A stretch of 64,000 nt of DNA, taken from positions 62,001 through 126,000 of the forward strand of contig JAFQXE010000003.1 in NCBI GenBank assembly GCA_017407125.1, read 5' to 3'. Shown here in pieces: positions 1 to 59,395 of this stretch (position 1 is the stretch's first letter; every line of letters starts with the position of its first letter). A program made the translations under genes and the position numbers. The notes beneath the pieces were generated by a model that saw only the letters and a program-made list of their open reading frames with translations, was not told the DNA's origin and ran no database searches. Origin of the DNA: Thermoguttaceae bacterium. Lineage in GTDB: Bacteria; Planctomycetota; Planctomycetia; Pirellulales; Thermoguttaceae.

Positions 1-37
1 ACTTCCTACTCCCCATTCCCTATTCCCTACTCCCTAA
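1..37. repeat. Heptad repeat, C-rich arm (CCCTATT type), truncated by window edge
   Basis: Tandem 7-mers of the CCCTACT/CCCTATT type run from the left edge up to the start codon of the methyltransferase at 37. Only the pyrimidine-rich arm is visible; a purine-rich arm may lie outside the window. Confidence 0.8.
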
Positions 38-1515
38 TGCCTGTTACACGTAAAGAACGCGGAGATTGGCAGACCCCGGCTGAATTGGCTCAAGGCGTCT
101 GCCGTCTGACGCGAAAGTTTATCGACCCTGACGCGATTCTCGAACCGAATTGCGGTCAGGGCGCTTTTGTTCTTGCCGCCGCCAAGGCGTTTCCTGATGC
201 CAAACGCATCTGGGCGGGCGACGTCAACGCTCAATACGTTCAAAACGTTAAGAAAATCAACGACAGTCGCGTTGTCGTTCAGAAGGCAAACTTCTTTTCC
301 GGTCGCTGGAAACAGGTCTTGAATTCCCAGAGCGGATCGATTTTGATTATCGGCAATCCGCCGTGGGTTACGAATTCGGAACTCGCCCGATTGAACTCCG
401 GCAACGTCCCCAAAAAGGAGAACGCCGAGAATCTTGTCGGCATAGACGCTCTGACGGGAAAAAGCAACTTCGACGTTTCCGAATGGATGATGGTTGAAGA
501 GGTCAAGGCGTTACAGGGTCGCAACGGCGTTTTAGCCATGCTTTGCAAGACGTCCGTCGCCAGAAAGGTTCTCCGGTATATCTGGAAAAACGCGCTGACG
601 TACGCCTCTGCCAGCATTTACAAAATCGACGCCAAACGTTTTTTTGACGTTTCCGTCGAGGCGTGTTTACTGTTGATTCAATTCAAACCGGAAACGGACG
701 CGACCCTCGCGCCTTGCCCGGTTTACGACTCTTTAGAAAGCGATCAGCCCAGCCAGAGCGTCGCGCTGAGAAACGAGACCTTGGTCAACGACGCAGCGTT
801 TACAGACGCGTTCCCGGAACTGTTTCAGCTGAATGCGTCACAACCGCAATGGCGTTCCGGCGTCAAACATGACTGCTCTAAAGTGTTGGAATTGACCCGG
901 ATTGACGGCGACGTTTATCTCAACAAACTGGGAGAACAGACGACTCTGGAACCGCTGTGCGTTTATCCGCTGCTGAAAAGTTCAGACGTCGCCAACGGGC
1001 GCGTTGAGCCGCCGATTTGCCGGTTTCTGCTCGTTCCCCAAACGCGCGTTGGACAGAGCGTTGAGCGTCTTCAGCATGACGCCCCGCTGACGTGGACGTA
1101 CTTGCAGAATCATCTCGACTATTTCCAGAACCGGAAAAGCGCTGTCTATAGCAAGCAGACGCCGTTTTCCATTTTTGGCGTGGGGAATTACGCCTTTACG
1201 CCGTGGAAGGTCGCGATTTCCGGGCTGTACCGGACGCTGTCCTTTCAGATAGTCAAACCGCAGAATGGACGCCCCGTTGTCTTTGACGACACATGTTACT
1301 TTCTGCCGTGTCAGACGAAACGTCAGGCAGAGTTGGCCAAACAGATTCTGGATTCCCCGATAGCCGTCCAAACGATTAACGCCCTAGTTTTCTGGGATTC
1401 CAAACGACCGATTAAATGCGAGGCGTTAAATCGGCTCAATCTGCTGGAACTGGCGAAACGGCTGGGATTGGAAACGCAGTATCGGGAGCTCTTCAAACAT
1501 TCCGGGACAAAATAA
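37..1515 (+). CDS. Class I SAM-dependent N6-adenine DNA methyltransferase, orphan
   Basis: The protein (492 aa) has the signatures of an N6-adenine DNA methyltransferase. GDWQTP sits at residues 9-14 (motif X-like), the SAM-binding loop EPNCGQGAF at 36-44, and the catalytic GNPPW at 106-110. The stretch GLDALTGKSNF-like, here GIDALTGKSNFD, follows at about 137-148 and is typical of stand-alone Eco57I-like methylases. The C-terminal half is probably the target-recognition region. It would transfer a methyl group from SAM to adenine in DNA. No restriction enzyme or specificity subunit lies downstream; the upstream side is outside the window, so 'orphan' applies only to what is visible. The ATG follows the C-rich heptad arm directly and no Shine-Dalgarno sequence is seen. 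Recognition sequence cannot be inferred. Confidence 0.8.
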   Translation: MPVTRKERGDWQTPAELAQGVCRLTRKFIDPDAILEPNCGQGAFVLAAAKAFPDAKRIWAGDVNAQYVQNVKKINDSRVVVQKANFFSGRWKQVLNSQSGSILIIGNPPWVTNSELARLNSGNVPKKENAENLVGIDALTGKSNFDVSEWMMVEEVKALQGRNGVLAMLCKTSVARKVLRYIWKNALTYASASIYKIDAKRFFDVSVEACLLLIQFKPETDATLAPCPVYDSLESDQPSQSVALRNETLVNDAAFTDAFPELFQLNASQPQWRSGVKHDCSKVLELTRIDGDVYLNKLGEQTTLEPLCVYPLLKSSDVANGRVEPPICRFLLVPQTRVGQSVERLQHDAPLTWTYLQNHLDYFQNRKSAVYSKQTPFSIFGVGNYAFTPWKVAISGLYRTLSFQIVKPQNGRPVVFDDTCYFLPCQTKRQAELAKQILDSPIAVQTINALVFWDSKRPIKCEALNRLNLLELAKRLGLETQYRELFKHSGTK

Positions 1516-1530
1516 ATTTCTTTTTCTCCG

Positions 1531-3270
1531 CTACCCTTTCCAGAATCCGGGGTACAGGAACACGATGAGAGTGAAAATCTCCAGACGTCCCATGAGCATC
1601 AAGACGATAAACAGTATTTTCGCCGGTGCGTGGAAGAGTCCGAAATTCCCGGAGGCGGTTATTCCAAACGACGGTCCAACGCAGTTGAGCGACGTCGCGA
1701 CCGCAGTGATGCTGTCGAACATCTGATCGTTGGCGCTGAAATCGTTGTTCGTCCAGGTCGACGCCGGTTCAATAGCCAGCAGCAGGACGCATGCCGCGAC
1801 AAAGATCATGGCGTACAAGGCGAAGTACGTCAAAACGCTGCGGCGCATTTCGTCGGAATCGTCAACGGGCTTACCCTGAATTTGTAGGACACGGACTATT
1901 TTGGGACGAAAGACGCGTTCCACTTCTATCCGCAGCGTTTTCCACAGGACAATAAGACGCATCAATTTCAAACCGCAGGTTGTACTGCCGACGCAGCCCC
2001 CGGTAAAGATCAAAGCGAACAAAATGCCGCGGGAGAAATCGTTCCAGGTATCGTACTCTTTCAGCCCAAAGCCGGTTGACGAGACAATCGACGCCACCTG
2101 AAATCCGCAGCAGCGAAAGCTCTCGCCCAGCGACGACCAGCTCAAATTGTTTTTCTGTCCTTCTGGAAGAAAATCGCCGTGAAGCCAGCACGATCCGGAA
2201 ACCAGAACCGTTGCAAGGAGGAAGATGAAAACAAAGAGTTGGAACTCAGTGTTTTTGAGAAGTTTGAAAATGCCGAGCTCGTATTTATAAATCTCTTTTC
2301 CATCTGGCGCGCCCATGTCGATTCGTTTCTTTTCCCACGTACCCGCATAGTAAAGCAGGGCGTAGTTGCACGAAGAAATTAGCATGAATATAATCAGCGT
2401 CAGTTCAATCACAGGGCAATGAAAACTGTCGATTGAGTCGTTTCGGGAACTGAACCCGCCAGTTGCGACGCAGGAAAACGAGTGACAAACCGCGTCGTAA
2501 AAAGACATGCCCTCAATACGAAGCAACAGCGTCAGTACCAGGTTAAGCGAAATATATACGCTCAGCAAAGCCATAGCGGTTTTTCGCGCTTGAGCGTAAG
2601 GGGAATCGTTGGACGAGCGCGGCATTTCCGTCAGCAAGAGCGATTTCCCGGCAGAACGCGCGCCCAGAATCGCGACAAACAAAACCATGATTCCCAAGCC
2701 GCCTAAAAAGTGGAGTTCGCAGCGCCAAAATTGAATCGCTTTTGGAATGCAGACGGGATCTTCCACGTCGCTGATAACCGACGCGCCAAAGCCTGTTACG
2801 CCGGAAAAGGATTCGAAAAGACAATCGACGACGGACATCGGAATCGGTTTGCCGGATTCGTCTTTGTCTCGAATGACGCCGGAGAACAAAAAGGGAACGG
2901 CGGTCAAAAGCCCCGCCAGAATCCAGCTTAGCCCGACAACCGCGATGGATTCCCGCCGAAGCAAATGACTCGGCGTGGGGTCCGGCGTCTTTTCCTGCGT
3001 TTCGTACATGTCGTCTGGATTATACGTTGACATCCCAATCTCGTCTTTCGCCCGGGATTCAATCAGAACCACGTTACGCCCAAAGAATCGGAGAATCCCG
3101 CCAATTGCAGCGCAGACGAGCATTGCCCCCGTCAGCGCAAAAAAGCTGCGAGAGTCAAAGGACTCGGTCTGTCCCATAAACGGAAACGACCACGGCAGCG
3201 CCAACAACATCGACGCGCCCAGAATAAAGGACAGATAACTCAAAAAACGGCAGATTCGGGGAAAGGACAT
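1531..3270 (-). CDS. trkH: TrkH-family potassium uptake channel subunit
   Basis: A 579-aa integral membrane protein with the four-fold pore repeats of Trk/Ktr channels. The filter-like segments are SGVTGFGAS (about 156-164), SCVATGGFS (266-274), SIVSSTGFG (394-402) and a fourth near 527 (TSLNCVGPSFG). The C-terminus, MGRLEIFTLIVFLYPGFWKG, is the family's usual end. The family imports K+ across the inner membrane with a cytoplasmic TrkA/KtrA gating ring; no trkA is in the window. It is convergent with the methyltransferase (15 bp between stops). The ATG follows a C-rich stretch ending in ACTCCCC, with no Shine-Dalgarno sequence. Confidence 0.93.
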   Translation of the reverse strand: MSFPRICRFLSYLSFILGASMLLALPWSFPFMGQTESFDSRSFFALTGAMLVCAAIGGILRFFGRNVVLIESRAKDEIGMSTYNPDDMYETQEKTPDPTPSHLLRRESIAVVGLSWILAGLLTAVPFLFSGVIRDKDESGKPIPMSVVDCLFESFSGVTGFGASVISDVEDPVCIPKAIQFWRCELHFLGGLGIMVLFVAILGARSAGKSLLLTEMPRSSNDSPYAQARKTAMALLSVYISLNLVLTLLLRIEGMSFYDAVCHSFSCVATGGFSSRNDSIDSFHCPVIELTLIIFMLISSCNYALLYYAGTWEKKRIDMGAPDGKEIYKYELGIFKLLKNTEFQLFVFIFLLATVLVSGSCWLHGDFLPEGQKNNLSWSSLGESFRCCGFQVASIVSSTGFGLKEYDTWNDFSRGILFALIFTGGCVGSTTCGLKLMRLIVLWKTLRIEVERVFRPKIVRVLQIQGKPVDDSDEMRRSVLTYFALYAMIFVAACVLLLAIEPASTWTNNDFSANDQMFDSITAVATSLNCVGPSFGITASGNFGLFHAPAKILFIVLMLMGRLEIFTLIVFLYPGFWKG

Positions 3271-3365
3271 GGGGAGTAAGTTGCGAGTTGCGAGTTACGA
3301 GTTGCGAGAGGATTTAGTGAAGCGCTTGCGTTTCTCGCTACTCGCTACTCGCCACTCGCAACTTG
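3271..3365. repeat. Heptad inverted repeat, GTTGCGA type
   Basis: Left arm of GTTGCGA/GTTACGA units (about 3279-3311), a short centre containing AAGCGCTTGCG, and a right arm of CTCGCTA/CTCGCCA units (about 3333-3364). The right arm encodes the last residues and the stop codon of aroB. Confidence 0.85.
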
Positions 3366-4445
3366 TAAAAATTCTAAAATCTGATTCTCATCGACGTTCT
3401 TAACCAGCTCGCCGGAACCAATTTTATCCGGCAGGACAAAATTGATGTGCCCGTTGGCGGTCTTTTTGTCGTGAAGCATGATTTGAACGGTTTTTTCCGG
3501 GGTCAAGCCGTCCGGCCAGGAAACGTCCATTCCCAACGCTTCGATAAGTCGATTGTGACGGAGAACCGTTTCCTCGTCGACGCGACCGAGATACTGGGCG
3601 AACCGGATGGCGCGCGTCATGCCGACGGAAACCGCTTCGCCGTGGAGCTTGCCTTCAAAGCGTTCAAAGGTTTCGATTGCGTGTCCGAAGGTGTGCCCAT
3701 AATTGAGCAGGGCGCGGCGGCCGGAGATTTCTTTTTCGTCTTGAGAGACGACGTCCGCTTTGATCAGACAGCATCGATAGACGATTTCTGCCAGGACGTT
3801 GACGTCGCGCTGCAAAATGGCGTCGACATGCGATTCCAGATACCGGAAAAAGGACTCGTCCAGAATAACGCCGTACTTGACGACTTCCGCCATTCCCGCT
3901 AGATACTGACGGTTGTTGAGCGTCCGCAGTGTGTCGATGTCAATCACAACGCCCTGAGGCTGATAAAACGTCCCAACGACGTTTTTACCGTATTCCAAAT
4001 CAATCGCGGTTTTACCGCCGACGGAGCTGTCGACCTGAGCCAAAAGCGTGGTCGGGAACTGCCAGAATCGAACGCCTCGCATGTACGTAGACGCGACGAA
4101 GCCCGCCAAATCGCCGACGACGCCTCCGCCGATAGCGCAGACTACCGTCTTCCGATCGCAGCCGCCTTCCAGCATCCGGCTCCAAATCTGTTCCGCCATA
4201 TCAAGGCATTTGCTGTCCTCGCCGGCGGGAATGACAGCCAGTTCCGTTTCCCAGACTTGAGCGATTGTCTCTGCCAGAGCGTCTCCGTAAAGCGTTTCGA
4301 CGTTGTCGTCGGTTACAACAAAGACCTGAGACGGCGCGCCGTTTTGACGAATGTACTCAACCGCGTTTGGCAGCAACCCCGTCCCGATAAAAATCGGATA
4401 CGATCGCTCCCCCAGTTCAACAGTAAGAGTTTTAATTTCTTGCAT
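3345..4445 (-). CDS. aroB: 3-dehydroquinate synthase
   Basis: Converts DAHP to 3-dehydroquinate, the second shikimate-pathway step, using NAD+ and a divalent metal. The NAD-binding GGGVVGDLAGF is at about 106-116, followed by PTTLLAQVDSSVGGKT at about 131-146. The metal ligands are expected in AEVVKYG (Glu), NYGHTFGHAIE (His) and HGEAVS (His), all present. I place the start at ATG 4445. A GTG at 4463 would add MYNINI, but that stretch is the AT-rich TATAATATTAATATT, which looks like promoter or spacer. The final residues QVASGE and the TAG stop are encoded by the heptad repeat, so the C-terminus has probably been rewritten by it. The rest of the fold is complete (366 aa). Confidence 0.95.
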   Translation of the reverse strand: MQEIKTLTVELGERSYPIFIGTGLLPNAVEYIRQNGAPSQVFVVTDDNVETLYGDALAETIAQVWETELAVIPAGEDSKCLDMAEQIWSRMLEGGCDRKTVVCAIGGGVVGDLAGFVASTYMRGVRFWQFPTTLLAQVDSSVGGKTAIDLEYGKNVVGTFYQPQGVVIDIDTLRTLNNRQYLAGMAEVVKYGVILDESFFRYLESHVDAILQRDVNVLAEIVYRCCLIKADVVSQDEKEISGRRALLNYGHTFGHAIETFERFEGKLHGEAVSVGMTRAIRFAQYLGRVDEETVLRHNRLIEALGMDVSWPDGLTPEKTVQIMLHDKKTANGHINFVLPDKIGSGELVKNVDENQILEFLQVASGE

Positions 4446-4469: not shown

Positions 4470-4557
4470 GGGGAATAGGGAATAGGGAGTAGGGAATAGT
4501 AATTCGCCTACGGCGAATTTAAAAACTACTCCCTATTCCCCACTTCCTACTCCCTAA
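4470..4557. repeat. Heptad inverted repeat, GGGAATA type with palindromic core
   Basis: Type example of the element. Purine arm 4470-4499 (GGGAATA, GGGAGTA units), palindromic core AATTCGCC-TAC-GGCGAATT at 4501-4519, pyrimidine arm 4525-4556 (CCCTATT, CCCCACT, TCCTACT units). As RNA it would fold into one long hairpin. It lies between aroB and the small lipoprotein, both on the minus strand. Confidence 0.9.
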
Positions 4558-4558
4558 A

Positions 4559-4780
4559 CTAATCCCTTCCAACGCCCAGATTTTTCTCGATGTCCCGGCT
4601 TTTGCTGGATAGTCCGGAATATTCGCTGTCAGCGTCGCTCTGCCGCAATTTAGAAAACATTCCCCCTTCCGCTTTTTCTTTGGGGTCGTCTTTTGCCGAT
4701 TTAGAAGAAAAGGTTTTACATCCAGAAAACAAAGACGCTGTAAAAGCAAACGCGGCGGCAATGGCAGTTCGACGATTCAT
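4559..4780 (-). CDS. Small putative lipoprotein
   Basis: A 73-aa product beginning MNRRTAIAAAFAF, with a signal peptide and a lipobox ending SLFSGC at residues 16-21. The mature part is short, charged (KSAKDDPKEKAEG) and unlikely to be a folded enzyme. I recognise no family. The ATG at 4780 is preferred over an upstream start at 4813 because the signal peptide begins there; the extra residues would be encoded by an AATTGCT heptad arm. The stop falls 2 bp from another heptad element. It is probably a surface or periplasmic lipoprotein; function unknown. Confidence 0.6.
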   Translation of the reverse strand: MNRRTAIAAAFAFTASLFSGCKTFSSKSAKDDPKEKAEGGMFSKLRQSDADSEYSGLSSKSRDIEKNLGVGRD

Positions 4781-4781
4781 A

Positions 4782-5000
4782 GTAATTAGCAATGAGCAAT
4801 TAGCAATTTGCAATTAGCGCAAAGCGCAGGTCAGGGGAGGGGTAGGTAATCGCATATTGACGCGATTCCCTTGAATTATTTCCTGTTTTATAGCAAAAAT
4901 TCCTCCGAAATGCAATATCAATTTAGAAAAAGCAAAACAAAAAAACGGCGCATTATTGCGCCGTTGAATTGCTAATTGCTCATTGAAAATTGCTAATTGA
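4782..5000. repeat. Heptad arms of the GCAATTA type flanking a spacer
   Basis: Left arm 4782-4815 (GCAATTA, GCAATGA, GCAATTT units) followed by GCGCAAAGCGC, and right arm 4966-5000 (GCTAATT, GCTCATT units). The two arms are inverted to each other. The spacer holds the intrinsic terminator of gltA. The right arm lies between the gltA stop codon and that terminator, so it is part of the gltA transcript. Confidence 0.8.
4936..4965 (-). terminator. Intrinsic terminator of gltA
   Basis: On the minus strand a 9-bp perfect stem AACGGCGCA/TGCGCCGTT (4944-4952 with 4957-4965, 4-nt loop) is followed by a T-run, about 40 nt after the gltA stop. Confidence 0.85.
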
Positions 5001-6319: not shown

Positions 6320-6360
6320 TTAATTCGGAATGCAGAATGCGGAATTAGGAATTACGCAAG
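6320..6360. repeat. Heptad arm, GGAATTA/CGGAATG type
   Basis: Units of the AATTCGG, AATGCGG, AATTAGG type end in ACGCAAGCGC. It lies just upstream of the gltA Shine-Dalgarno sequence, in the presumed gltA leader. Confidence 0.75.
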
Positions 6361-6476: not shown

Positions 6477-6566
6477 AATTCGGAATGCGTAATACAGAAT
6501 TAGAAATTATCATTGTGGAACGCTTTGCGTAATTCCGCATTCCGAATTCCTAATTCCGAATTACCT
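6477..6566. repeat. Heptad inverted repeat, GGAATTA type
   Basis: Left arm AATTCGG/AATGCGT/AATACAG units (6477-6508), centre containing AACGCTTTGCGT, right arm CCGCATT/CCGAATT/CCTAATT units to 6566. It ends 7 bp from the rpsR stop codon. Confidence 0.85.
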
Positions 6567-6999: not shown

Positions 7000-7180
7000 G
7001 GCAGTAGACAGTAGGCAATAGGCATTAGTGAGGAGTAGACGCGAAGCGTTCCACGACAAGAATAAGGGGGTTCCAGCTATTTTGAACTTGAATAAATCCG
7101 AAACTCTGTTATAATATAAGGGATTAGAGAATTGTTTTTTGTGGCGCTTTGCGTCCTACTGCCTACTGCCTTTTATCCCC
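7000..7180. repeat. Split heptad element, GGCAGTA type, with a promoter between the arms
   Basis: Purine arm 7000-7053 (GGCAGTA, GACAGTA, GGCAATA, GGCATTA, then GACGCGAAGCGTTCC) and pyrimidine arm 7141-7176 (GCGCTTTGCG, then CCTACTG units). The 326-bp gap between rpsR and manC holds this element, an AT-rich stretch (6880-6970) in which I see nothing, and the manC promoter between the arms. Confidence 0.8.
7088..7115 (+). promoter_or_regulatory. Sigma70-type promoter of manC
   Basis: TTGAAT (7088-7093), 16 bp, TATAAT (7110-7115). The predicted start near 7122 gives a leader of about 60 nt that contains the C-rich heptad arm and GCGCTTTGCG. Confidence 0.7.
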
Positions 7181-8275: not shown

Positions 8276-8456
8276 GGAGCGGCGAGTGATTGGAAGGCGG
8301 TAATGAAGCGACTAACAGGAGCGGAATTACGCAGTTCGCCAAAGGCGAACCGAAACGCTGGTAATACAATTGGTTTATAGCCGTTCCAACATTTTGTTCG
8401 CCGTTCCGGCGAATGCGTAATTCCGTTCGCTAACGCTCGCTCCATTACCGCCTTTC
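8273..8456. repeat. Flanking element, copy A (terminal inverted repeats AAGGCGGTAATG)
   Basis: About 180 bp, beginning TAGGGAGCG at the manC stop. Ends are inverted to each other: GGAAGGCGGTAATGAAGC (8292 onward) and GCTCCATTACCGCCTTTC (to 8456). Inner palindromes are GTTCGCC-AAA-GGCGAAC and GTTCGCCGTTCCGGCGAA. A second copy lies on the other side of hsp20 at 9012-9171. Confidence 0.85.
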
Positions 8457-8494
8457 ATCTTCTGGTTGACTATGCGTATATGATTCTACCGTCA

Positions 8495-9014: not shown

Positions 9015-9171
9015 GGAGCGTCGAATTATTGGAAGGCGGTAACGAAGCGACCAACGGGAGCGGAGTTACGCAGTTCGCCGAAGGCGAACCCTAAAAATGA
9101 ACCTGATATTAAGTTCGCCTAACGGCGAATGCGTAATTCCGTTCGCTTCGCGAACTCCATTACCGCCTTTC
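9012..9171. repeat. Flanking element, copy B
   Basis: Same structure and orientation as copy A: TAGGGAGCG at the hsp20 stop, GGAAGGCGGTAACGAAGCGAC from 9031, inner palindromes GTTCGCC-GAA-GGCGAAC and GTTCGCCTAACGGCGAAT, and the inverted end CCATTACCGCCTTTC at 9171. The loop between the inner palindromes differs from copy A. Confidence 0.85.
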
Positions 9172-9180
9172 ATCCACTTG

Positions 9181-10006: not shown

Positions 10007-10067
10007 TAGTATAAAGTGGTTAGTGGTAAGTAAGCTTCTAGCTTCTAGCCTCTAGCTTTTAGCTTGT
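10007..10067. repeat. Left heptad arm around the four-helix-bundle gene
   Basis: GTGGTTA/GTGGTAA units pass into GCTTCTA/GCCTCTA/GCTTTTA units. The inverted partner is at 10440-10567, with the four-helix-bundle gene between them. Confidence 0.8.
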
Positions 10068-10439: not shown

Positions 10440-10567
10440 CGTTCTATTTAGTAATAGCTAGGTAAGCTAAAGCTAACTATTACTTGGATGTATTTTGTTC
10501 CTGGATGAGCGTTTAAAGCTGGAAACAAAAACAATAAGCTAACAGCTAGTAGCTAGTAGCTAAAAGC
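10440..10567. repeat. Right heptad arm around the four-helix-bundle gene
   Basis: Contains a small hairpin GTAATAGCT...AGCTAACTATTAC (10451-10482), then GTTTAAAGCTGG and heptads AGCTAAC/AGCTAGT/AGCTAAA to 10567. It is inverted to the GCTTCTA units at 10034-10067 and supplies the last codons and stop of hydF. Confidence 0.8.
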
Positions 10568-12599: not shown

Positions 12600-13826
12600 A
12601 TGTTTCAGCGAAATGCATGGGCAAGCATAATGGCGTTGTGCGTCTGCTCATTGGCGCTTTGTATTTCTCAGGCAAGCGCTCAGGAAAAAGTTTTAAAACA
12701 ATACTACGGAAACGGCGTTCACGCCTATTATTCCGGAAATTATGTCGAAGCGTTTGACTTGCTCAGCAAACCAATCGACGCTAAAATCGAAGACCCCCGT
12801 CCGTATTACTTCCGCGGTTTCGCTTTGATGGAACTTGGACGTCCAGAACAGGCGGAAAAGGATTTCAAAGCTGGGGCAGAACTGGAACTCAAAGACACCA
12901 CAGGTCGTTTTCCTGTCAATTTTGCTCTGGAACGCTGCCAGGGGAAAACTCGAATTGCATTGGAAAAAGCTCGCAATGAAGTTCAGTTAGCCGCTTTCCA
13001 GCGTCGTGCCAAATACAGCGCCGCTATTTATAATACTCGTCTGGAAGATCAAAAAGCTACGCTCATTCCAGAAGATCTTGATACGTCTGGCAGTACGCTT
13101 GAATTCGACGACTCTGACTCATTAATCAATGATTCTGATAACGGAAGTTCATTGTTGGACGAAGACGGCAACAACAAAACTAATGATTCGGCTGACAGTG
13201 ACAACCTTTTTGACGACGAAGGCAAAACTGATGAACCGGCTGACGGCGACAATCTCTTTGACGACGAAGGCAAAACTGATGAACCGGCTGACGGCGACAA
13301 TCTCTTTGACGACGCTGCAGACGAACCGGCGGGCAACGACGCTGCGGACCCGTTTGGCGCTGACGACGCTGCAGACGAACCGGCAGGCAACGACAACGCT
13401 GACCCGTTTGGCGCTGACGATGCGGCAGACGAACCGGCAGGCAACGACGACGCAGACCCGTTTGGCGCTGACGATGCGGCAGACGAACCGGCAGGCAACG
13501 ACGACGCAGACCCGTTTGGCGCTGACGATGCAGCAGACGAACCCGCCGCTGACGACGCAAAGCCCGCCGACGACGCGGCCGATGACGCTGGCAACGCTGA
13601 TGACGCAGCCGCTGACGACGATTCCGATCCGTTCGCAGAGGAAACTCCAGAAGAAACAAAAGATGCTGAACCGCTCAAAAACGCCAATTTGGACGATGAT
13701 GACGCTGCGGACGCAGCTGACGACGCCGATGCTGCTGATGATGCGGCTGACGACGCGGCGGCTGACGACGCTGCCGATGACGCTGGCAATGCTGATGAAG
13801 CTGAAGAAGATCCCTTTGACTTCTGA
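12600..13826 (+). CDS. Secreted protein with TPR-like domain and acidic tandem-repeat tail
   Basis: The 408-aa protein starts with a signal peptide (cleavage probably after SQASA at residue 27). A TPR-like region follows (about 32-100, YYGNGVHAYYSGNYVEAFDLL and a second unit around YYFRGFALMELGRPEQAEKDF). From about residue 160 the chain is an acidic low-complexity tail. It holds 16-aa units (DNLFDDEGKTDEPADG) and then four 18-aa units (DDAADEPAGNDxADPFGA), ending DPFDF. Codons are repeated too: 48-bp units at 13200-13307 and 54-bp units at 13308-13523. The tail contains almost no basic residues and no hydrophobic core, so it is probably disordered and may bind Ca2+ or cationic surfaces. Family unknown. 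GGAG precedes ATG; a strong terminator follows. Confidence 0.8.
   Translation: MFQRNAWASIMALCVCSLALCISQASAQEKVLKQYYGNGVHAYYSGNYVEAFDLLSKPIDAKIEDPRPYYFRGFALMELGRPEQAEKDFKAGAELELKDTTGRFPVNFALERCQGKTRIALEKARNEVQLAAFQRRAKYSAAIYNTRLEDQKATLIPEDLDTSGSTLEFDDSDSLINDSDNGSSLLDEDGNNKTNDSADSDNLFDDEGKTDEPADGDNLFDDEGKTDEPADGDNLFDDAADEPAGNDAADPFGADDAADEPAGNDNADPFGADDAADEPAGNDDADPFGADDAADEPAGNDDADPFGADDAADEPAADDAKPADDAADDAGNADDAAADDDSDPFAEETPEETKDAEPLKNANLDDDDAADAADDADAADDAADDAAADDAADDAGNADEAEEDPFDF
13200..13536 (+). repeat. In-frame coding tandem repeats (48-bp then 54-bp units)
   Basis: Two full 48-bp units begin at 13200 and 13248 with a partial third at 13296. 54-bp units begin at 13308, 13362, 13416 and 13470, with a partial fifth at 13524. 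All lie within the acidic-protein gene, and the third and fourth are nearly identical, which makes copy-number change likely. Confidence 0.85.
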
Positions 13827-18776: not shown

Positions 18777-18799
18777 TAAAGGAGGGGGGGAGGAAAATA

Positions 18800-18889
18800 G
18801 GCAGTAGGCAATAGGCAATAGGCAGTAGTGAGGAGCGAGCCGCTCGGGGGTGCGCTTGCGTCTGGGAGTGCGGCGCCCTTAGGCGCCGC
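18800..18889. repeat. GGCAGTA heptad arm and GC-rich palindromes
   Basis: GGCAGTA, GGCAATA, GGCAATA, GGCAGTA units (18801-18828) are followed by GAGCGAGCCGCTC and the perfect palindrome GCGGCGCC-CTTA-GGCGCCGC (18870-18889). The same palindrome occurs at 59697-59714. This is part of the 404-bp gap between the divergent pgm and acyltransferase genes. Confidence 0.75.
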
Positions 18890-18960: not shown

Positions 18961-19056
18961 GGAGGGAGTAGGGAGTGGGGAGTAGGGAATAGTTTTTTAA
19001 TTCGCCGAAGGCGAATTCAATTCCTCACTCCTCACTCCTAACTCCTAACTAACTTT
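18961..19056. repeat. Heptad element with mismatched arms, in the acyltransferase leader
   Basis: Purine arm of GGGAGTA/GGGAATA units (18961-18992), core AATTCGCC-GAA-GGCGAATT (18999-19017), pyrimidine arm of CTCACTC/CTAACTC units (19021-19052). The two arms belong to different heptad families, so arms can be exchanged between elements. Confidence 0.85.
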
Positions 19057-20826: not shown

Positions 20827-20897
20827 AATAAGTGATAAGTTTTAAGTGGCAAGCGACTTTCTCACTTACCACTAACCACTAATCACTTACCACTTAA
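20827..20897. repeat. Heptad inverted repeat, GTGGTAA type
   Basis: Left arm AAGTGAT/AAGTTTT/AAGTGGC (20828-20853), right arm CTTACCA/CTAACCA/CTAATCA (20861-20896). It fills the gap between the convergent folP and anti-sigma genes, where a terminator would be expected, and ends at the anti-sigma stop. Confidence 0.85.
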
Positions 20898-20900
20898 CGC

Positions 20901-21872
20901 TTATTTTTCAATCGGCTGAATTCGGATCTCCGTTAAAACGGAAATGTCTGCCGCAGGCGGGGTAACGGTTTCTACAGCTTTGTTTTGAACGGAAACGACG
21001 CCGGGAACGGATTTCAGCGTTGAAAGCGCTTCCGCTCGCTGGCTGGCGGTTGTGGAAAGCGTCCAAACGCCAACCTCTAACGGCGCTTTGGAGTCGTCTG
21101 TTTCAACGCCGAGTTCTTTTAATACGGCTTGCCACTGATCCCCGTTGAACTTATCTTTGTCTACAGAGCAGACAATCTGAAACTGGACTTCGTCCGGCGC
21201 TTGAACGACAGTTTCCGGAACGTCTTCTTCAACGGTGTCGTTAGCAGGAATCAAAACGACGTTTGGATTATCTTGAACCGTTTCCGCCATGGGGCCGCCG
21301 TTGAGGTCAGCAGGAGGATTGAGAAACGGAACGGAAGTTTCCAATTCCTTTGGATTGTCGTTTGAGGGCGTATCTGCAATCTCTGACTCGTCCGGCCTGG
21401 TTTGAATGGGCGCGCTGTTGTCCTTCGGATTGGAAAGGTACAATCCAATCGCGATGATAATAACCATCGTCGGCCAAAGCATGGCGCGAGAGATTCTCTG
21501 CGTAATCGTCGGTTTCTGCCAATCGTCAACGTAACCGTTTTCAGACTCTTTTGAGACAGATTCCTGTTCGGATTCGCCGTCGTTGGACGTCAACGCGGAA
21601 TCGGTTAAGAAACTCAAATCGACTGGCGAATCCGCTAACGCAAAAGGGGAAGGAGATTCCGACGCTGCGCGTTCCAATATAGACTTTGTAAGGTCAAAGG
21701 GAACTTTGACCTTTGGCAGCTGAGATATCAGAGCCGAACAACGCTTGAACGACTCCAGCTCCTGGCGAAGCTCCGGCTCCGCCTGAAGACGTTTTTCAAA
21801 ATTAATAGCTTCCTCTTGAGACAATTCCCCATCGAAATATGCCTCTAAAGCCCCTGAGTCATCTACTTTCAT
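20901..21872 (-). CDS. Transmembrane anti-sigma factor
   Basis: The 323-aa protein has a short N-terminal segment of the anti-sigma type (YFDGELSQEEAINFEKRLQA), a cytoplasmic linker to about residue 130, one membrane helix (MLWPTMVIIIAIGLYL, about 134-149) and a large periplasmic part. No zinc-binding HxxxCxxC is present. The gene starts 36 bp after an ECF sigma gene, the usual arrangement for a sigma factor and its membrane-bound antagonist. The periplasmic domain (about 225-320) looks like an alpha/beta fold and may be the sensor; I do not recognise it. Confidence 0.75.
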   Translation of the reverse strand: MKVDDSGALEAYFDGELSQEEAINFEKRLQAEPELRQELESFKRCSALISQLPKVKVPFDLTKSILERAASESPSPFALADSPVDLSFLTDSALTSNDGESEQESVSKESENGYVDDWQKPTITQRISRAMLWPTMVIIIAIGLYLSNPKDNSAPIQTRPDESEIADTPSNDNPKELETSVPFLNPPADLNGGPMAETVQDNPNVVLIPANDTVEEDVPETVVQAPDEVQFQIVCSVDKDKFNGDQWQAVLKELGVETDDSKAPLEVGVWTLSTTASQRAEALSTLKSVPGVVSVQNKAVETVTPPAADISVLTEIRIQPIEK

Positions 21873-22457: not shown

Positions 22458-23090
22458 GTCTTTCAAAGGATTAGAGGGGCTTAGACAAGAAAAAGTTCCG
22501 ATTCTACGGGATTTTTGCCAAAAAAATCGGAATATTCCAGAATCGATGGCAAAAAACTCCTGAATCAAAGATTTTCGCAGTCTTAAAATGGTAAATAAAT
22601 GACTCTTCAACCCGCAGCTCAAACTTGCCCTGGAGCCTTTCGGGATGATTCATCTACACACATTTAAGGCGAATCTGTTTTTTGCCCAACAAGATTACCT
22701 TTAAGTTGATTGTATTCTAACCGCTTTTTTGCTTTTTTGCAATACCCCAAAAGCAAATTTTTTAAAAAAATTCCTAAAATTTTTGAGAAGATGGCAAAAA
22801 TAGCGAATATACAGGCAACTTTTCGCATTGTATCGACTCAAAAAATGCAAATCAGCGTCGATTTTGTTGCAAAGCGCTAACAATTCCAAAAAACGAATTG
22901 ATAAGAAATCAAATTGCTACTCACTGTTACTAATTACGAATTAAGAATTGCTAATTACGAATTACAATCTCTCCCCCCCCTTTAAATAAATAAAGGATTA
23001 TGTAAATTAATAGAATACAACACGTGAGAGAAACGCTATGCGTTAATTCCCTACTCCCCATTCCCTATTCCCTTATCCCCTACTGCTGCC
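22458..23090. other. Intergenic region between divergent sigma factor and galM
   Basis: No gene is supported in these 633 bp. 22700-22920 is AT-rich. 22921-22968 holds heptads of the AATTACG/AATTGCT type, 23036-23086 a C-rich arm (CCCTACT, CCCCATT, CCCTATT) that ends 5 nt before the galM ATG. A short palindrome CCTTTAAATAAATAAAGG lies near 22978-22995, and GAAACGCTATGCGTTA near 23030. Promoters are not clear. Confidence 0.6.
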
Positions 23091-24155: not shown

Positions 24156-24312
24156 CCGTTAGCTTCTAGTTACTAGCTCCTAGCTTGGAGATTTTAGCTT
24201 CCTGCTTTAAATGTTAACGCTTAGAGCTGCGAATTTACAAGCTAATGGCTAGCAGCTAATAGCTAGAAGCTCCTCAACTCCTCCCTCCTCACTCCTAACT
24301 CCTCACTAACCA
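24156..24312. repeat. Heptad element, GCTTCTA type, with a second CTCCTCA arm
   Basis: GCTTCTA/GTTACTA/GCTCCTA units, a centre similar to the 121-bp repeats at 34129-34500 (CTTAGAGCTG...TTTACAAGCTAATGGCTAG), inverted AGCTAAT/AGCTAGA units, then CTCCTCA/CTCCTAA units ending 5 nt before the next ATG. Confidence 0.85.
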
Positions 24313-24316: not shown

Positions 24317-25345
24317 ATGCCAGCCAACTTAACTCAACAGTACCTCAAGGCGGAAGACGCCTATCGTCAAGCGACCAGTCTGGAAGAAGAACTGCGTTGT
24401 CTTCAGGTCATGCTTCAGGAAATCCCGAAGCACAAGGGGACAGACCATCTTCAGGCGGCGTTAAAGGCGAAAATCGCTTCGACCCGAAAAGAAATCGACT
24501 CTGAGCGCGCCGCTGGCAAAAAGAGCGGCGGACTGAGCATAAAGATTCCGCGTCAGGGAGCGGGAACGGCGATTATTATCGGCGGTCCCAACGCCGGCAA
24601 AAGCCAGCTTCTCAAAAGTCTGACCAAGGCAACGCCGGAGGTGGCGATTTATCCGTACACGACCAAAATCCCGCAGCCGGGAATGATGCCCTGGAACGAC
24701 GTCTACGTTCAGCTTATCGACACGCCTCCGATTACCAAAGACTATATCGATCCGTACGCCTACGGCTTGATTCGCGCGGCGGAACTGGCGATTTTAATGG
24801 TCGATTTGGGTTCGGACGACGGCGTTACACAGGCGTACGACGTCCTCGATAAAATGCGCCTGACCAAAACCCGGCTTGGACAAAAAACCTGTCTGGACGA
24901 AGACGACATTGGAATTACGTACACGAAAGCGATTCTCGTCTTTAATAAAATGGATTTGCCCGAAGCGGCGGAACGAAAAGCGATGTTCTGGGAACTTCTT
25001 CCGGAAGAATTCCATTTGAACGACTGGGACACGTACGACATTTCCGCTGACCGCGACCTGGGCGGTGAGAACTGCAACCTCGAACCGCTTCGTGACGACA
25101 TTTACAAGAGCATGGGCGTCATTCGCGTTTATACAAAACTCCCAACCAAAAAGGTTGCGGATCTCGACCGACCGTTCACCGTGAAAAATGGCGATTCCCT
25201 GCTCGACCTGGCAAGTCAGGTTCACAAAGACTATTCCGAAAAACTCAAGTTCGCCCGCATTTGGGGATCGCAGGTTCACGACGGCACACCCGTTAAGGGA
25301 GATTATATTCTCGTCGACGGCGACATCGTCGAAATGCACATGTAG
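24317..25345 (+). CDS. DRG/Obg-type GTPase with C-terminal TGS domain
   Basis: The 342-aa protein has a helical N-terminus (1-75), a G domain and a C-terminal TGS domain (about 280-342, RPFTVKNGDSLLDLASQVHK). GTPase motifs are the P-loop GGPNAGKSQLL (89-99), the TKIPQPGMM switch, DTPP (where Obg/DRG proteins have DxPG) and NKMD. The organisation is closest to eukaryotic/archaeal DRG, translation factors that bind the ribosome, rather than bacterial Obg/CgtA, which lacks this TGS arrangement. The missing G of DxPG is worth noting. Its physiological role in bacteria is unknown. No operon partner. Confidence 0.82.
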   Translation: MPANLTQQYLKAEDAYRQATSLEEELRCLQVMLQEIPKHKGTDHLQAALKAKIASTRKEIDSERAAGKKSGGLSIKIPRQGAGTAIIIGGPNAGKSQLLKSLTKATPEVAIYPYTTKIPQPGMMPWNDVYVQLIDTPPITKDYIDPYAYGLIRAAELAILMVDLGSDDGVTQAYDVLDKMRLTKTRLGQKTCLDEDDIGITYTKAILVFNKMDLPEAAERKAMFWELLPEEFHLNDWDTYDISADRDLGGENCNLEPLRDDIYKSMGVIRVYTKLPTKKVADLDRPFTVKNGDSLLDLASQVHKDYSEKLKFARIWGSQVHDGTPVKGDYILVDGDIVEMHM

Positions 25346-32979: not shown

Positions 32980-33069
32980 GATATAATCCGTAGGTAAAAT
33001 ATCTGTTTAGTCTATTACAATACCCTATCTTAGCGTTTTTTGATAATTAGAGCAAGAGGGAATTTTTAA

Positions 33070-34121: not shown

Positions 34122-34128
34122 CAATGTT

Positions 34129-34500
34129 ATAGCTTCTAGCTCCTAGCCTCTAGCTTCTAGCTTTTCCTATTAGCGTCTAACTTAAAATCTATCAGCTTAG
34201 AGTTACAAACATCCAAGCTAATGGCTAGAAGCTAATAGCTAACAGCTTATCCTGTTCTAGCTCCTAGCCTCTAGCTTCTAGCTTTTCCTGTTAGCGTCTA
34301 ACTTAAAATCTATCAACTTAGAGTTACAAGCATCCAAGCTAATGGCTAGAAGCTAATAGCTAACAGCTTATTCTGTTCTAGCTCCTAGCCTCTAGCTTCT
34401 AGCTTTTCCTGTTTACGTCTAACTTAAAATCTATCAGCTTAGAGTTACAAACATCCAAGCTAATGGCTAGAAGCTAGCAGCTAACAGCTTATCCAATCAG
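34129..34500. repeat. Three tandem copies of a 121-bp hairpin unit (GCTTCTA heptads)
   Basis: AGCTCCTAGCC recurs at 34138, 34259 and 34380, a spacing of exactly 121 bp. Each unit has CTAGCTC/CTAGCCT/CTAGCTT heptads, a conserved centre (GCGTCTAACTTAAAATCTAT) and inverted AGCTAAT/AGCTAGA/AGCTAAC heptads, so each folds on itself. This fills the 382-bp gap between convergent genes; no terminator or gene is visible. Confidence 0.92.
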
Positions 34501-34503
34501 CGT

Positions 34504-35535
34504 CTATTTGGTTTCTTTAAGCCATTCCGCAATAACCCAGCCGACTTTTGCCAGCGACAGCGCCGAGCAGTTTGACGGGACGTCGTCCATCGTGTGCCAG
34601 TACGGATAATCGAAGTCTATGATGTCAATACAGGGGATATCGCCGCGGCTGTGAAGCATTATATGGTCGTCGTTGATATCGTATTTTGTCGTGGGAATAA
34701 ACTCTTTGACTTTGAGCCGGGCGGCGACTCGCCAGATTTCTCGAGCGATGGGGGAACTGTCGCGCCACGACATCGAAACGCGTTCGTAGTAAATTTGTAA
34801 ATCGGAGTCGCCGACCATGTCCAGCAAAACGCCCTTGACGTATTTGTATCCCCGCTGGGGATTGGCGGCGTACTGTGACGCAAAAAACTCCGACCCGACG
34901 AAAAAGCGTCCGGTTCGGGAAAACAGAAACTCTTCCGCGTCCAGGAAAACGAAATCGACGCCGTATTTGGGATTGATCGCGGTTTGTCCCTTTTCCATCC
35001 ACGTCGCCAGTTCCATTAAAATAGCGGTTCCGCTGGCGCCGTCGTTCGCTCCGACAAAGCGTCCTTTGGGATTGCGTTTGTCGTTCATCGGGTACGGAAG
35101 CGTGTCGTAATGCGTACACAGCAGAATGCGTTCCGTTCTTTCAGGACGCCATCGGACGATAATATTACAGCCCCGCGTTTTCTCTTTCGTCAGCGGGTGC
35201 GGGTAGTCGAAAAGCTGCCGTTCAACTTTGCAGTCAAACTGTTTGAAGTAGTTGATTATATATTCCTGCTGACGCTTCATGCCCTCCGACCCCGTACAGC
35301 GCGGACCGATGTCGCACAGCGCTTTGAGATGTTCCATCGCCTGCTGACCGTTAAACGGGATGTCCGACAGCCGGAGTTTACTTTGGTATTTCGGCGTGAG
35401 CGGCTTGCGCCCGGAGAACCATGAAAACTGCGCGGCGGCGATTGCTGCTGCAACAACAATTCCGGTAAATGCAACAACGGCGATGATACGATTTCTTTTA
35501 TGGCGCATGTCAGGTTCGTTTTCGGTATTGTTCAT
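34504..35535 (-). CDS. M28-family metallopeptidase, glutaminyl-cyclase-like
   Basis: The 343-aa protein has a short cytoplasmic N-terminus, one membrane helix (about 17-37) and an extracytoplasmic M28 domain. Metal ligands and catalytic residues are seen in LLCTHYDT, GANDGASGTAILMEL (Asp), FLDAEEFL (Glu-Glu), VGDSD and PYWHTMDD (His). The spacing of these motifs and the short length resemble glutaminyl-peptide cyclotransferases of the same fold, so it may cyclise N-terminal Gln rather than cut peptides; I cannot decide. The ATG directly follows C-rich heptads. Confidence 0.85.
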   Translation of the reverse strand: MNNTENEPDMRHKRNRIIAVVAFTGIVVAAAIAAAQFSWFSGRKPLTPKYQSKLRLSDIPFNGQQAMEHLKALCDIGPRCTGSEGMKRQQEYIINYFKQFDCKVERQLFDYPHPLTKEKTRGCNIIVRWRPERTERILLCTHYDTLPYPMNDKRNPKGRFVGANDGASGTAILMELATWMEKGQTAINPKYGVDFVFLDAEEFLFSRTGRFFVGSEFFASQYAANPQRGYKYVKGVLLDMVGDSDLQIYYERVSMSWRDSSPIAREIWRVAARLKVKEFIPTTKYDINDDHIMLHSRGDIPCIDIIDFDYPYWHTMDDVPSNCSALSLAKVGWVIAEWLKETK

Positions 35536-35537: not shown

Positions 35538-35594
35538 TTTAGGGAATAGGGAGTAGGAAATAGGGAATAGTTATACTATTGCCTAATCCCTAAA
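35538..35594. repeat. Heptad inverted repeat, GGGAATA type
   Basis: Purine arm GGGAATA/GGGAGTA/GGAAATA/GGGAATA (35541-35570), then CTATTGC/CTAATCC/CTAA. It joins the peptidase start to the stop of the next gene, and the right arm encodes the last residues of the methyltransferase. Confidence 0.85.
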
Positions 35595-42042: not shown

Positions 42043-42257
42043 TGTTTTATCAGTTAGTAAAAATACCAGCGGTCAGAAGGACGCCAGGCGCCTTCTTGTT
42101 TTTGCTTCCTGCTTGCGTAGACCGCTTATTCTAATTATATATATAAAAGAGAGAAAAGCAAGGGGGCGGAGCGGGGGGATTAATTAGCAATTAGCAATTT
42201 GCAATTAGCAATTGACGCAAAGCGTTCCGCTCCAGATTTTTGGAGGGTAGAGCATAC
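42043..42257. other. Intergenic region upstream of gcvPB, with GCAATTA heptads
   Basis: 42181-42220 holds AATTAGC/AATTTGC heptads followed by ACGCAAAGCGTTCC; no inverted partner arm is visible. The rest is AT-rich and held no gene I could support. The whole gap 42043-42416 also includes the gcvPB promoter and leader. Confidence 0.6.
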
Positions 42258-45343: not shown

Positions 45344-45440
45344 TTAAGGGAATAGGGAGTGGGGAGTAGGGAGTAGGGGGTAGAAGAATCATTACTATTC
45401 CCTATTCCCCATTCCCTAAATTCGCCACAGGCGAATTACT
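45344..45440. repeat. Heptad inverted repeat, GGGAATA type, core outside the arms
   Basis: Purine arm GGGAATA/GGGAGTG/GGGAGTA/GGGGGTA (45347-45383), pyrimidine arm CTATTCC/CTATTCC/CCATTCC (45395-45418), then the core AATTCGCC-ACA-GGCGAATT (45420-45438) next to, not between, the arms. It lies inside the BPL_N gene row, and the core overlaps the stop of paralogue 2. Confidence 0.85.
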
Positions 45441-49546: not shown

Positions 49547-49761
49547 GACGGTTAGGAAACAGGGGTTAGGGAGTAGGGATTAGGGAATAATTATGAGTTT
49601 TTAGTAGTTAGTGGTTAGTCCGTGCTTCTGGGGAGCGGACATTGTCCGCGATAAAGGCGGGTAATACCCGCCACCCGTAAGCAGGTTAGTACGCAAGCGT
49701 TTGTCTAACTTACCACTTACCACTTACAACTTACAACTCCCTAAACTATTCCCTATTTCCT
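49547..49761. repeat. Nested heptad element: GGGAATA arms enclosing GTGGTTA arms
   Basis: Outer purine arm (49551-49590; GGGGTTA, GGGAGTA, GGGATTA), inner arm GTAGTTA/GTGGTTA (49603-49618), a GC-rich centre with GCGGACATTGTCCGC and GGCGGGTAATACCCGCC, inner inverted arm CTTACCA/CTTACAA (49706-49737) and outer inverted arm CCCTAAA/CTATTCC/CTATTTCC to 49761. The outer right arm encodes the last residues of UvrB. Confidence 0.9.
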
Positions 49762-57160: not shown

Positions 57161-57217
57161 ATTCGCGTTTGGAGGAATGAATAATGCGCTTTCAAAAAAA
57201 CGGAATGGCGCAAAGCC

Positions 57218-58790: not shown

Positions 58791-58804
58791 GGCATGCGCC
58801 TTTA

Positions 58805-58897
58805 TAGTTAGGAGTTAGGAGTGAGGAGTGAGGAGTTGACAAGCCGTTAGCTGTTAGCTGCTAGCGGCTAGAAGCTCTCTACTGCCTATCCCTCCCC
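58805..58897. repeat. Mixed heptad element (GTTAGGA, GCTGTTA, CTACTGC units)
   Basis: GTTAGGA/GTGAGGA units (58806-58838), then GTTAGCT/GCTAGCG/GCTAGAA and one CTACTGC/CTATCC group. Three families are joined in less than 100 bp. It separates the vWF-type gene from the sigma gene and supplies the sigma factor's TAG stop. Confidence 0.85.
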
Positions 58898-59395
58898 ATT
58901 ATTTAGTTTTTTCCTCAATTTAGTAATGGCTTCATGAAGCAGCCAGCCGATTGTCGTTTTGGTGTCTCCCGTAATCTGGGAAATTTCATCGTAGGAAAGC
59001 CCTTGCTGGAATTTAAGCATAATAACTTCTCGCTGTCTGTCCGGCAATTGGTCGACGGCGTCAAAAACCTCGCCGAAAGACTCTTCCTGTTCCAGAGCGT
59101 GGTGCGGCTGAGAATTTTTTTGATGCGACAAATCCGGAAGAATATCTGTCTTGATAACGTCTTTGATTTTTCGCGCTCTTTTTTGGCGTCGAAATTGATC
59201 AATAAACAGATTTCGGGCTGTTCTGTAAAGCCACGCTCGATGTGAGCCGGGCTGAATGTCTGTATTGACTTGAAGAAATCTCAGATACGTTTCCTGAACC
59301 AGATCGTCAGCCCAGGCGCGATCGCCTGTCAAACGAATCGCGTACATGCGAATTTCGTCGTAATACGGCATATCGGAACTGGGACTGGACTGCAT
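58886..59395 (-). CDS. ECF RNA polymerase sigma factor
   Basis: A 169-aa sigma factor. Region 2 spans about 10-78 (MYAIRLTGDRAWADDLVQET, YLRFLQVN, AWLYRTARNLFIDQFRR) and region 4 about 110-165 (LPDRQREVIMLKFQQGLSYD, TTIGWLLHEAITKLRKKL). The ATG at 59395 gives a normal length. The YfbK-like protein gene lies about 95 bp downstream with a heptad element between them. The pair resembles sigma/anti-sigma units in which the antagonist has an extracytoplasmic domain. Confidence 0.9.
   Translation of the reverse strand: MQSSPSSDMPYYDEIRMYAIRLTGDRAWADDLVQETYLRFLQVNTDIQPGSHRAWLYRTARNLFIDQFRRQKRARKIKDVIKTDILPDLSHQKNSQPHHALEQEESFGEVFDAVDQLPDRQREVIMLKFQQGLSYDEISQITGDTKTTIGWLLHEAITKLRKKLNNGEG

Follow-up and report, generated by a model that had tools for sequence, protein, structure and literature searches.

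Tandem heptanucleotide arrays between the genes of a Thermoguttaceae bacterium are probably the arms of small mobile hairpin elements

A 64,000-nucleotide stretch of the genome of a rumen Thermoguttaceae bacterium of the phylum Planctomycetota (assembly GCA_017407125.1, contig JAFQXE010000003.1, positions 62,001 to 126,000; hereafter the window, which is C4:62001-126000 of the 4.44-Mb genome G000) carries numerous tandem arrays of 7-bp units between its genes. These arrays are probably the arms of small non-autonomous mobile hairpin elements and not products of local slippage. Near-identical copies lie at unrelated loci, copies are nested in one another, and the array family at orthologous sites turns over between species. 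The window has been compared with a further 400 kb of G000 and with the congeners G001, G002 and G003, which together with G000 make four genomes of the genus and which match the window over long collinear stretches with an identity of mostly 77-98%. Intergenic status and gap types rest on gene calls by an open reading frame (ORF) heuristic of our own, and the families are assigned from hand-made lists of units, on which the counts depend. Forty loci of relatives have been kept once duplicates were removed, and 38 of them were picked for holding a GGGARTA hairpin, so that family proportions in the arm, core and nonamer tallies lean to GGGARTA. The RGIG7588 loci are pooled with G001 by assumption.

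A lag scan over periods 4 to 12 detects 36 arrays at period 7 in the window, forming 22 clusters, and 0-4 arrays at each other period; many of the same arrays are reported by TRF. First-order Markov resampling of the window in 500-bp blocks (n = 50) yields 0.2 arrays on average and never more than 1. The 400-kb sample contains 83 period-7 arrays compared with 0 once it is block-shuffled, and at a stricter threshold it contains 76 arrays compared with 3 in a single Markov resampling. The initial annotation of this DNA described about 25 such sites and listed their families, which is right in substance, and the period-7 excess on which its reading depended is found elsewhere in the genome as well. 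In the window and the 400-kb sample together, 107 of the 119 arrays are intergenic, the commonest array size is four units (58/119), and 33 distinct consensus units occur. The arrays consist of head-to-tail 7-bp units lying mostly between genes, as do heptameric intergenic simple repeats known as short tandemly repeated repetitive sequences (STRR) or simple sequence repeats (SSR). The free variation in copy number typical of slippage is not seen, the mode being four units and the two arms of a hairpin carrying opposite alleles as described below; a few arrays in the genus reach 8-13 units.

The arrays are paired as hairpins. Among 95 pairs of arrays no more than 70 bp apart, 66 have a left arm on the plus strand and a right arm on the minus strand, and 6 have the reverse arrangement. 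The purine arm mostly stands on the left, as initially annotated; the reason given, that this is expected for a true inverted repeat, does not hold, because a purine-right arrangement is equally an inverted repeat, and so the polarity is a separate regularity. The GCTNNTA family has a polarity opposite to that of the other families. The two arms belong to the same family in 42 of the 66 hairpins compared with 19.4 expected (2000 shuffles, maximum 30), indicating that mixed-arm hairpins are common without being the rule. The inverted layout with cores of the AATTCGCC-N3-GGCGAATT or CGCAA(A)GCG type, also described in the initial annotation, is real. Core 1, TTCGCC..GGCGAA, is present in 27/66 hairpins; core 2, CGCAA(A)GCG-like, is present in 17/66, where it joins six left and seven right families with equal arms in 9/17. 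The two core motifs are enriched 12 and 11 fold near arrays. Exactly four units are present in 32/41 arrays of the GTTGCGA type and in 30/33 of the GAGTTAG/GAGTGAG type. Thus, the four-unit preference and the inverted pairing of Xanthomonas-type heptads are both found here. A G3 tract in each unit, which would give the capacity to form a G-quadruplex, is confined to the GGGARTA family, and the other families tallied lack it.

Sequence variation within a family is found mainly at one or two unit positions. In 27 GGG hairpins, mirrored units match at the variable position in 21% of cases compared with 49% in shuffles. In core-1 GGGARTA hairpins, the two arms carry opposite alleles, one mainly GGGAATA and the other mainly GGGAGTA, in 21/21 cases, with 11 oriented one way and 10 the other, so that the folded stem has about one A-C mismatch or G-T wobble per heptad. 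By eye, a few hairpins of other families resemble this pattern. In two Clostridiales metagenome-assembled genomes (MAGs), 19 arms combine a deviant third unit, counted from the core, with a canonical outer unit, and 1 arm shows the opposite. Neither pattern stands as a cross-phylum law: one mismatch per heptad finds no support outside the genus, and a deviant third unit is seen at 31 to 15 in the genus and at 23 to 23 in all remaining taxa. An A-R-T motif is present in the heptad unit of 357/379 arrays but in 31/39 distinct units, compared with a shuffled expectation of 53%; it has been dropped as a rule for every heptad, GGGATGA and GGGTTCA of other planctomycete genera being without it. The recurrence of TAG at every junction, claimed in the initial annotation, holds for the 27/36 window arrays with TAG within the unit and fails for the other 9, including GTTGCGA, so that a TAG/G-start signature is not common to all families; stops in all three frames from a TAG every 7 nt are rejected on the same count. 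A common phase across families, likewise claimed, is weak (9/31 neighbouring pairs in phase compared with about 4.4 expected).

Whole elements recur at unrelated loci. Comparison of the 66 hairpins with one another yields 17 pairs with an identity of at least 90%. One of these pairs is orthologous, and the other 16, which come from 13 elements, have a flank identity of 0.48-0.69, compared with a mean of 0.55 and a maximum of 0.69 for unrelated 42-mers. One 87-bp element, with the ends AGGG and CCCT, is 100% identical at two loci. A GGG arm and a GTGGTTA hairpin together form a composite that is matched at three loci besides the window. A heptad hairpin that by eye is like those of the Clostridiales MAGs is also carried by an IMG/VR contig with phage head genes (L186, 1420-1510). 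It is bordered on one side by an ORF that matches phrog_556, a minor-head family of PHROG, in its early part, and on the other by an ORF whose best match is a tail-completion family and which also matches the late part of phrog_556; other ORFs of the contig match head proteins. The position of this hairpin between the two phrog_556-matching ORFs would fit an insertion into, or next to, a gene for a minor head protein.

The elements and arrays of the window are as follows.

10 to 36, minus strand: right (pyrimidine) arm of the GGGARTA family, ending at the ATG of the ORF that starts at 37
3279 to 3363: GTTGCGA-family hairpin, left arm 3279-3308, core with AAGCGCTTGCG, right arm 3334-3363
4471 to 4556: GGGARTA-family hairpin, left arm 4471-4499, core AATTCGCCTACGGCGAATT at 4501-4519, right arm 4526-4556
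4780 to 4999: AATTAGC-family arms at 4780-4818 and 4967-4999, about 150 bp between them
6328 to 6354, plus strand: AATTCGG/AATGCGG left arm, then ACGCAAGCG
6532 to 6562, minus strand: array with the unit AATTCCG
7002 to 7171: GGCAGTA arrays at 7002-7028 and 7155-7171
10033 to 10065, plus strand: GCTTCTA-family array, a second array at 10537-10562
18798 to 18828, plus strand: GGCARTA arm
18963 to 19050: mixed hairpin, GGGAGTA left arm 18963-18992, core 18999-19017, GAGTTAG-family right arm 19022-19050
20863 to 20903, minus strand: GTGGTAA-family right arm, family unchanged in two congeners
22927 to 23073: AATTACG array 22927-22965 and TATTCCC array 23048-23073
24239 to 24307: right part of a GCT-family element, then a GAGGAGT right arm at 24278-24307
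25881 to 25913, minus strand: AATTGCT array
28298 to 28334, plus strand: GGCARTA left arm directly after a stop codon
29249 to 29336: GGGAATA left arm, core TTCGCCTGCGGCGAA, right array
33068 to 33154: AATTAGG/AATGCGG left arm, core ACGCAAAGCGC, GGAGTGA right arm
34134 to 34494: GCT-family element in three tandem copies with a period of 121 bp
35540 to 35570, plus strand: lone GGGAATA arm
42182 to 42213, plus strand: AATTAGC left arm and core GACGCAAAGCG, right arm not seen
45347 to 45437: GGGARTA arms 45347-45383 and 45395-45418, core-1 palindrome outside both at 45419-45437
49567 to 49738: composite of a GGGARTA left arm and a GTGGTTA hairpin, with a doublet of repetitive extragenic palindromic (REP) sequences inside at about 49620-49683
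58806 to 58871: GAGTTAG left arm 58806-58836, then a GCT-type array 58842-58871

The REP doublet at 49620-49683 resembles doublets beside a gene for a REP-associated tyrosine transposase (RAYT) at locus L157, and GGTTAGT stands on both sides of it, which may be a 7-bp target duplication or simply the heptad unit.

The comparison of orthologous sites covers 44 gaps, 5 of which have no ortholog, in the four congeneric genomes and is scored by species pair. The 72 pairs occupied in both species comprise 20 with the same family set, 26 with overlapping sets and 26 with disjoint sets; arrays are present in one species only in 40 pairs and in neither in 88. Gap 3270-3367 is occupied by GTTGCGA in the window, by GAGGAGT together with a TATTCCC right arm in G002, and by GGCAGTA followed by a GGGAGTA hairpin in G001 and G003. 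At gap 6308, the left arm is AATTCGG/AATGCGG in G000 and GTTGCGA in G002, and the core and right flank are nearly identical. The mixed hairpin at 18963-19050 has GGCAGTA instead of GGGAGTA as its left arm in G002, the right arm being kept. Arm exchange in orthologous gaps, which the initial annotation proposed to look for, is therefore observed between species. At gap 24155, the GAGGAGT right arm is called in three of the four species and the inner element varies, a different palindromic repeat being present in G003 where G001 and G002 carry a GGCARTA hairpin. At site 45347-45437, the left family is common to the four species and the right side differs, and at gap 58790 all four show a left arm of the GAGTTAG type, with a different inner part in each. 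At gap 34121-34504, where the window carries the three tandem 121-bp copies, the aligned flanks of three congeners lie 22-25 bp apart and no array is present.

These observations lead to a probable scheme in which an element would be an imperfect hairpin of about 70-120 bp, with two arms on either side of a short palindromic core or loop; each arm would consist of about four 7-bp units or, in some cases, of about three 9-bp units. Several families coexist, and their units are unrelated. New copies would insert between genes and into or next to existing copies, frequently at a core, and older elements would be truncated or replaced, so that many lone arms would be remnants. A single machinery, whether a transposase or some process of replication or recombination that works on hairpin DNA, may handle all families. 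The products or the tolerance of this machinery may account for an arm length near 26-31 bp and for the interrupted pairing, one example being a stem with enough imperfections to evade hairpin nucleases. A broader proposal is rather doubtful, namely that a dedicated, patchily distributed system builds or moves tandem-unit hairpins with arms of about 26-31 bp (mostly four heptads, sometimes three nonamers) across planctomycete genera and perhaps other phyla, each with its own unit families, and that this system and not slippage is a main source of the wide heptamer excess between bacterial genes.

Several results weigh against mobile hairpins. Only four of the 16 near-identical pairs with unrelated flanks lie within one genome, the rest being between species. 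A target-site duplication is not visible at the identical 87-bp pair, the sole pair examined, no precise empty site being available for comparison, and the flanks of the elements show no strong target motif. No transposase or other mobilising agent has been identified, larger elements with heptad ends not having been searched for. Disjoint families occur at 26 pairs compared with 53 expected under random dealing over the occupied gaps; orthologous families thus agree above chance, indicating that much is inherited. Arrays of 8-13 units indicate that slippage occurs too. The opposite-allele rule fails outside the genus (68 hairpins, permutation P = 0.97, correlation between left and right arms +0.20), and so opposite alleles may reflect descent and not constraint.

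Lone arms have a polarity of their own. Exactly one classified array is present in 56 gaps, and in 45 of these it belongs to a polar family. The purine strand points away from the nearest gene in 42/45. Where the two gene distances differ by at least 40 bp, the outward reading is seen in 30/31, 15 to 1 at starts and 15 to 0 at stops, and this start/stop symmetry argues against a role in RNA. By family, the outward reading is seen in 8/9 arms of the AATT type and in 0/2 of the GCT family; outside the genus it is seen in 4/6 lone arms, which is too few to extend the rule. A core-like palindrome lies just inside the lone arm in 18/45 cases and, by eye, many have a decayed partner, so that true single insertions have been rejected. 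It is therefore likely that the arm that faced the open gap has been lost, and lone arms are probably remnants. The G-rich repeats described in PMC4692102, as far as its accessible text goes, are placed like the lone arms here, sense after stops and antisense before starts.

Seven is not the only period. The 400-kb sample has 36 arrays at period 9 and 29 at period 18, and the period-9 arrays of the window and this sample are intergenic in 31/40. The nonamer units are of a few types, CGCAAAGNN, CACGAAANN and ACGGATTNN, with about three copies in 22/31. Over the four genomes, 60 intergenic arrays have period 9 compared with 370 of period 7, with a median length of 26 bp for nonamer and 31 bp for heptad arrays, and adjacent nonamer pairs comprise five plus/minus and no minus/plus. 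Thus, the nonamer arrays are genuine and form a minority class alongside the heptads. The 7-bp period stressed in the initial annotation is strongly preferred without being unique, because nonamer arrays of about 26 bp, with a similar arm length and a partly similar layout, occur too; arm length may be more important than period. The nonamer arrays also lower the odds of a dedicated hairpin-building system. Intergenic nonamer arrays lie at 25733-25759 and 29474-29984 of the window and in the C32 and C22 stretches, some as inverted pairs.

The distribution across taxa is patchy, and the heptad sequences differ between lineages. The pattern GGGARTAGGGARTAGGG is present in 4/4 genomes of the genus, in 0/21 other genomes of the family and in 1/15 others of the order, at one site. 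The pattern AGTTGCGAGTTGCGAG is frequent in G000, G001 and G002 and is found at one site each in 2 of the 58 other family genomes drawn. Within the family, both searched patterns are therefore essentially confined to this genus. A purine arm followed by an inverted arm is found in 108 stretches of the named genome collection, 40 in the genus and 68 elsewhere; the 68 GGGARTA-pattern stretches are labelled Clostridiales, Selenomonadaceae, Caulobacterales, Rhizobiales, Acidobacteria, Nostocales and others, these host labels being as recorded, many of them for MAGs in which misbinned contigs are possible. The reversed pattern, used as a control, proved to match a genuine heptad, GGGATRA, of G028, G005 and G007, whose loci carry further heptads such as GGGTTCA and TTTTGGA, some of them inverted. 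In G028, a planctomycete of another family (loci L187-L220), GGGATGA, GGGTTCA, TTTTGGA, GTCCGTG and AAGGCCC are seen, and some arrays exceed 10 units. Unselected stretches, which are small (20-60 kb for most), contain 8 period-7 arrays per 80 kb in G028, 6, all different, in 40 kb of G007, 2 in 40 kb of G039 and 1 in 60 kb of G030. None are present in 20-60 kb stretches of G018, G029, G036 and G037 or in the single 20-kb stretch of G005, although arrays exist elsewhere in G005. A single long GGGAATA array with 26 overlapping matches lies near G029:C1 2313737-2313928 in a genome otherwise without the pattern and is likely to result from slippage.

Ordinary replication slippage would expand heptads locally, the period being set by the polymerase footprint and the inverted pairs being incidental. 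Heptamer repeats are over-represented in many bacteria, the footprint idea is cited in PMC4692102, and slippage-like arrays are present in the genus (8-13 units) and in relatives, such as the GGGAATA array of G029 and the runs of a dozen or more units in G028. As the general source, slippage is nevertheless very unlikely, given the mode of four units, the opposite alleles of core-1 GGG hairpins, the deviant third unit with a canonical outer unit in the two Clostridiales MAGs, and the whole elements, cores included, at unrelated flanks. The interpretation in the initial annotation is partly supported. One generating mechanism or selection on the unit, in place of independent slippage, is supported by the recurrence of arms with about four units across unrelated families, by the opposite alleles, by the near-identical whole elements and by the arm exchange between species; a common phase, a universal TAG/G-start signature and seven as the sole period are not supported. 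Selection for formers of G-quadruplexes or i-motifs, with four G-tracts per arm, fits GGGARTA, the largest family here, and circular dichroism together with the four-unit preference speaks for it in GGGAATC and GGGGAYT (PMC4692102, in the part available). However, GTTGCGA, GAGTTAG, AATTAGC and AATTACT have similar arm sizes without G3 tracts, and several unrelated families side by side speak against the G-quadruplex as a general reason, which makes this explanation extremely unlikely. Functional RNA hairpins, acting as terminators or mRNA stabilisers with a conserved position and a free sequence, would account for the many gaps that are still occupied after a change of family, and the predicted RNA folds of the 27 GGG hairpins are stable (mean -53.7 kcal/mol, better strand). 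Such a role is unlikely all the same: occupancy differs in 40 species pairs, many arms are lone or mismatched, no Rfam match reaches the gathering threshold in the window, and the 106 arrays divide by gap type into 67 codirectional, 23 divergent and 16 convergent, compared with 166, 42 and 37 of 245 gaps. This distribution is close to that of all gaps, without the excess in convergent gaps expected of intrinsic terminators, T-runs not being scored.

Movement by RAYT (Y1) transposases, as for REP sequences and bacterial interspersed mosaic elements (BIME), is suggested by an architecture similar to paired palindromes and by 10, 6, 9 and 6 Y1_Tnp matches in the four congeners. Against this, an array lies within 2.5 kb at 3/13 RAYT loci (at a permissive threshold and with 7 of the 10 G000 loci included), one of them with units unlike those of the heptad families, and most of the five G000 loci scanned have other, GC-rich repeats. 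Y1_Tnp is also present in 28/36 relatives outside the genus, and GGGARTA is absent from 35 of those 36. The mark of REP sequences, a palindrome of 20-40 bp that has an unpaired GTAG or CGTC at its foot, is not seen, the best-defined element being 87 bp long with AGGG...CCCT ends; GTAG sits inside the arms of some heptad families. RAYT is therefore an unlikely mobiliser, and an origin of the arrays as REP/BIME-type elements is decidedly improbable. The G000 loci L157-L162 and L142 contain several distinct Y1_Tnp genes, several of them with their own repeats nearby. A dedicated polymerase, for example a telomerase-like reverse transcriptase, could write the units from a template, in keeping with several units per genome, a strongly preferred period and different sets by genus. 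This is most improbable, because no RVT_1 match is found in the array-rich G000, G001, G002 and G007 (incomplete genomes, in which only the RVT_1 class was searched), RVT_1 is present in G018, G029 and G036, whose 20-60 kb samples hold no array, and nonamer arrays stand beside the heptads. RVT_1 matches are also found in the array-bearing G003, G005 and G028.

Parts of this picture are already in print, as far as the accessible portions of the papers cited here show. GGGAATC of Xanthomonas and GGGGA(C/T)T of Nostoc PCC 7120 form 7-bp G-rich arrays, mostly of four units and mostly intergenic, lying sense after stops or antisense before starts and varying between close relatives (PMC4692102). 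The Xanthomonas heptads are often in inverted pairs, with 70 cases in Xcc, and 83% of the Xcc repeats are in the same context in Xac. That study covers one G-rich family for each organism, and divergent gaps are under-represented. In contrast, the genus here has several families, most of them without G-tracts, shared cores, mixed arms, near-identical elements at unrelated loci and family replacement at orthologous sites, and divergent gaps are not avoided. The initial comparison with cyanobacteria was a fair lead, although the host is a planctomycete and the closest documented case found is GGGAATC of Xanthomonas. A heptamer excess in prokaryotic intergenic DNA has been found in a SPADE survey, the available text of which does not mention hairpin arms or mobility (PMC6344855). 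Thus, heptads, the four-unit preference, inverted pairing and placement (Xanthomonas and in part Nostoc) and the wide heptamer excess are known. TAACTGA of Beggiatoaceae forms short intergenic sets of two to six units, patchily over distant phyla, but is one sequence with 169 direct sets compared with one indirect, lies near start codons, and has related heptamers that are rarely repeated there (PMC4679880). REP/BIME with GTAG or CGTC tags are small dispersed intergenic palindromes, of several types in some genomes, that occur in multiple phyla including Planctomycetes and are hypothesised to be miniature transposons; unlike the elements here, they are 20-40 bp long with an unpaired tag at one end, the GTAG type is RAYT-linked, and heptad arms are unmentioned in the part available (PMC3733652). 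Chloroflexus aurantiacus has many arrays of one heptamer, (GATAGRA)n, which are satellites with no hairpin architecture described in the accessible text (PMC6749651). Calothrix PCC 7601 has three tandem heptanucleotides in one genome, several as here, with an arm and core architecture not described in what is available through PMC4692102. The literature covered, little of it from subscription journals and some of it in part, describes neither several heptad families that share cores and replace one another at orthologous sites nor heptad hairpins as mobile elements.

Elements of the mobile-hairpin kind give a handle on why 7-base repeats abound between bacterial genes, which can be tested by strain comparison. 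Unrelated heptad families and a nonamer minority in one genus separate effects of period and arm length from those of sequence. A common agent, should there be one, would represent a new type of mobile system for short DNA elements.

Other repeats accompany the arrays in the window. A dispersed palindromic repeat of about 150 bp (GGAAGGCGGTAATG...) at 8288-8459 and 9030-9173 has dozens of matches in the four congeners; repeats of this type share some gaps with heptad hairpins and contain the TTCGCC..GGCGAA motif. Another dispersed repeat, of about 150-240 bp, lies at 25345-25620, with about 100 or more matches listed in the genus. Within genes, the ORF at 30087-31934 has long 99-bp repeats at 30475-31865 that are ankyrin-like by eye, and the ORF at 12600-13826 has tandem repeats at 13175-13584, with a tetratricopeptide repeat (TPR) match elsewhere in the same ORF.

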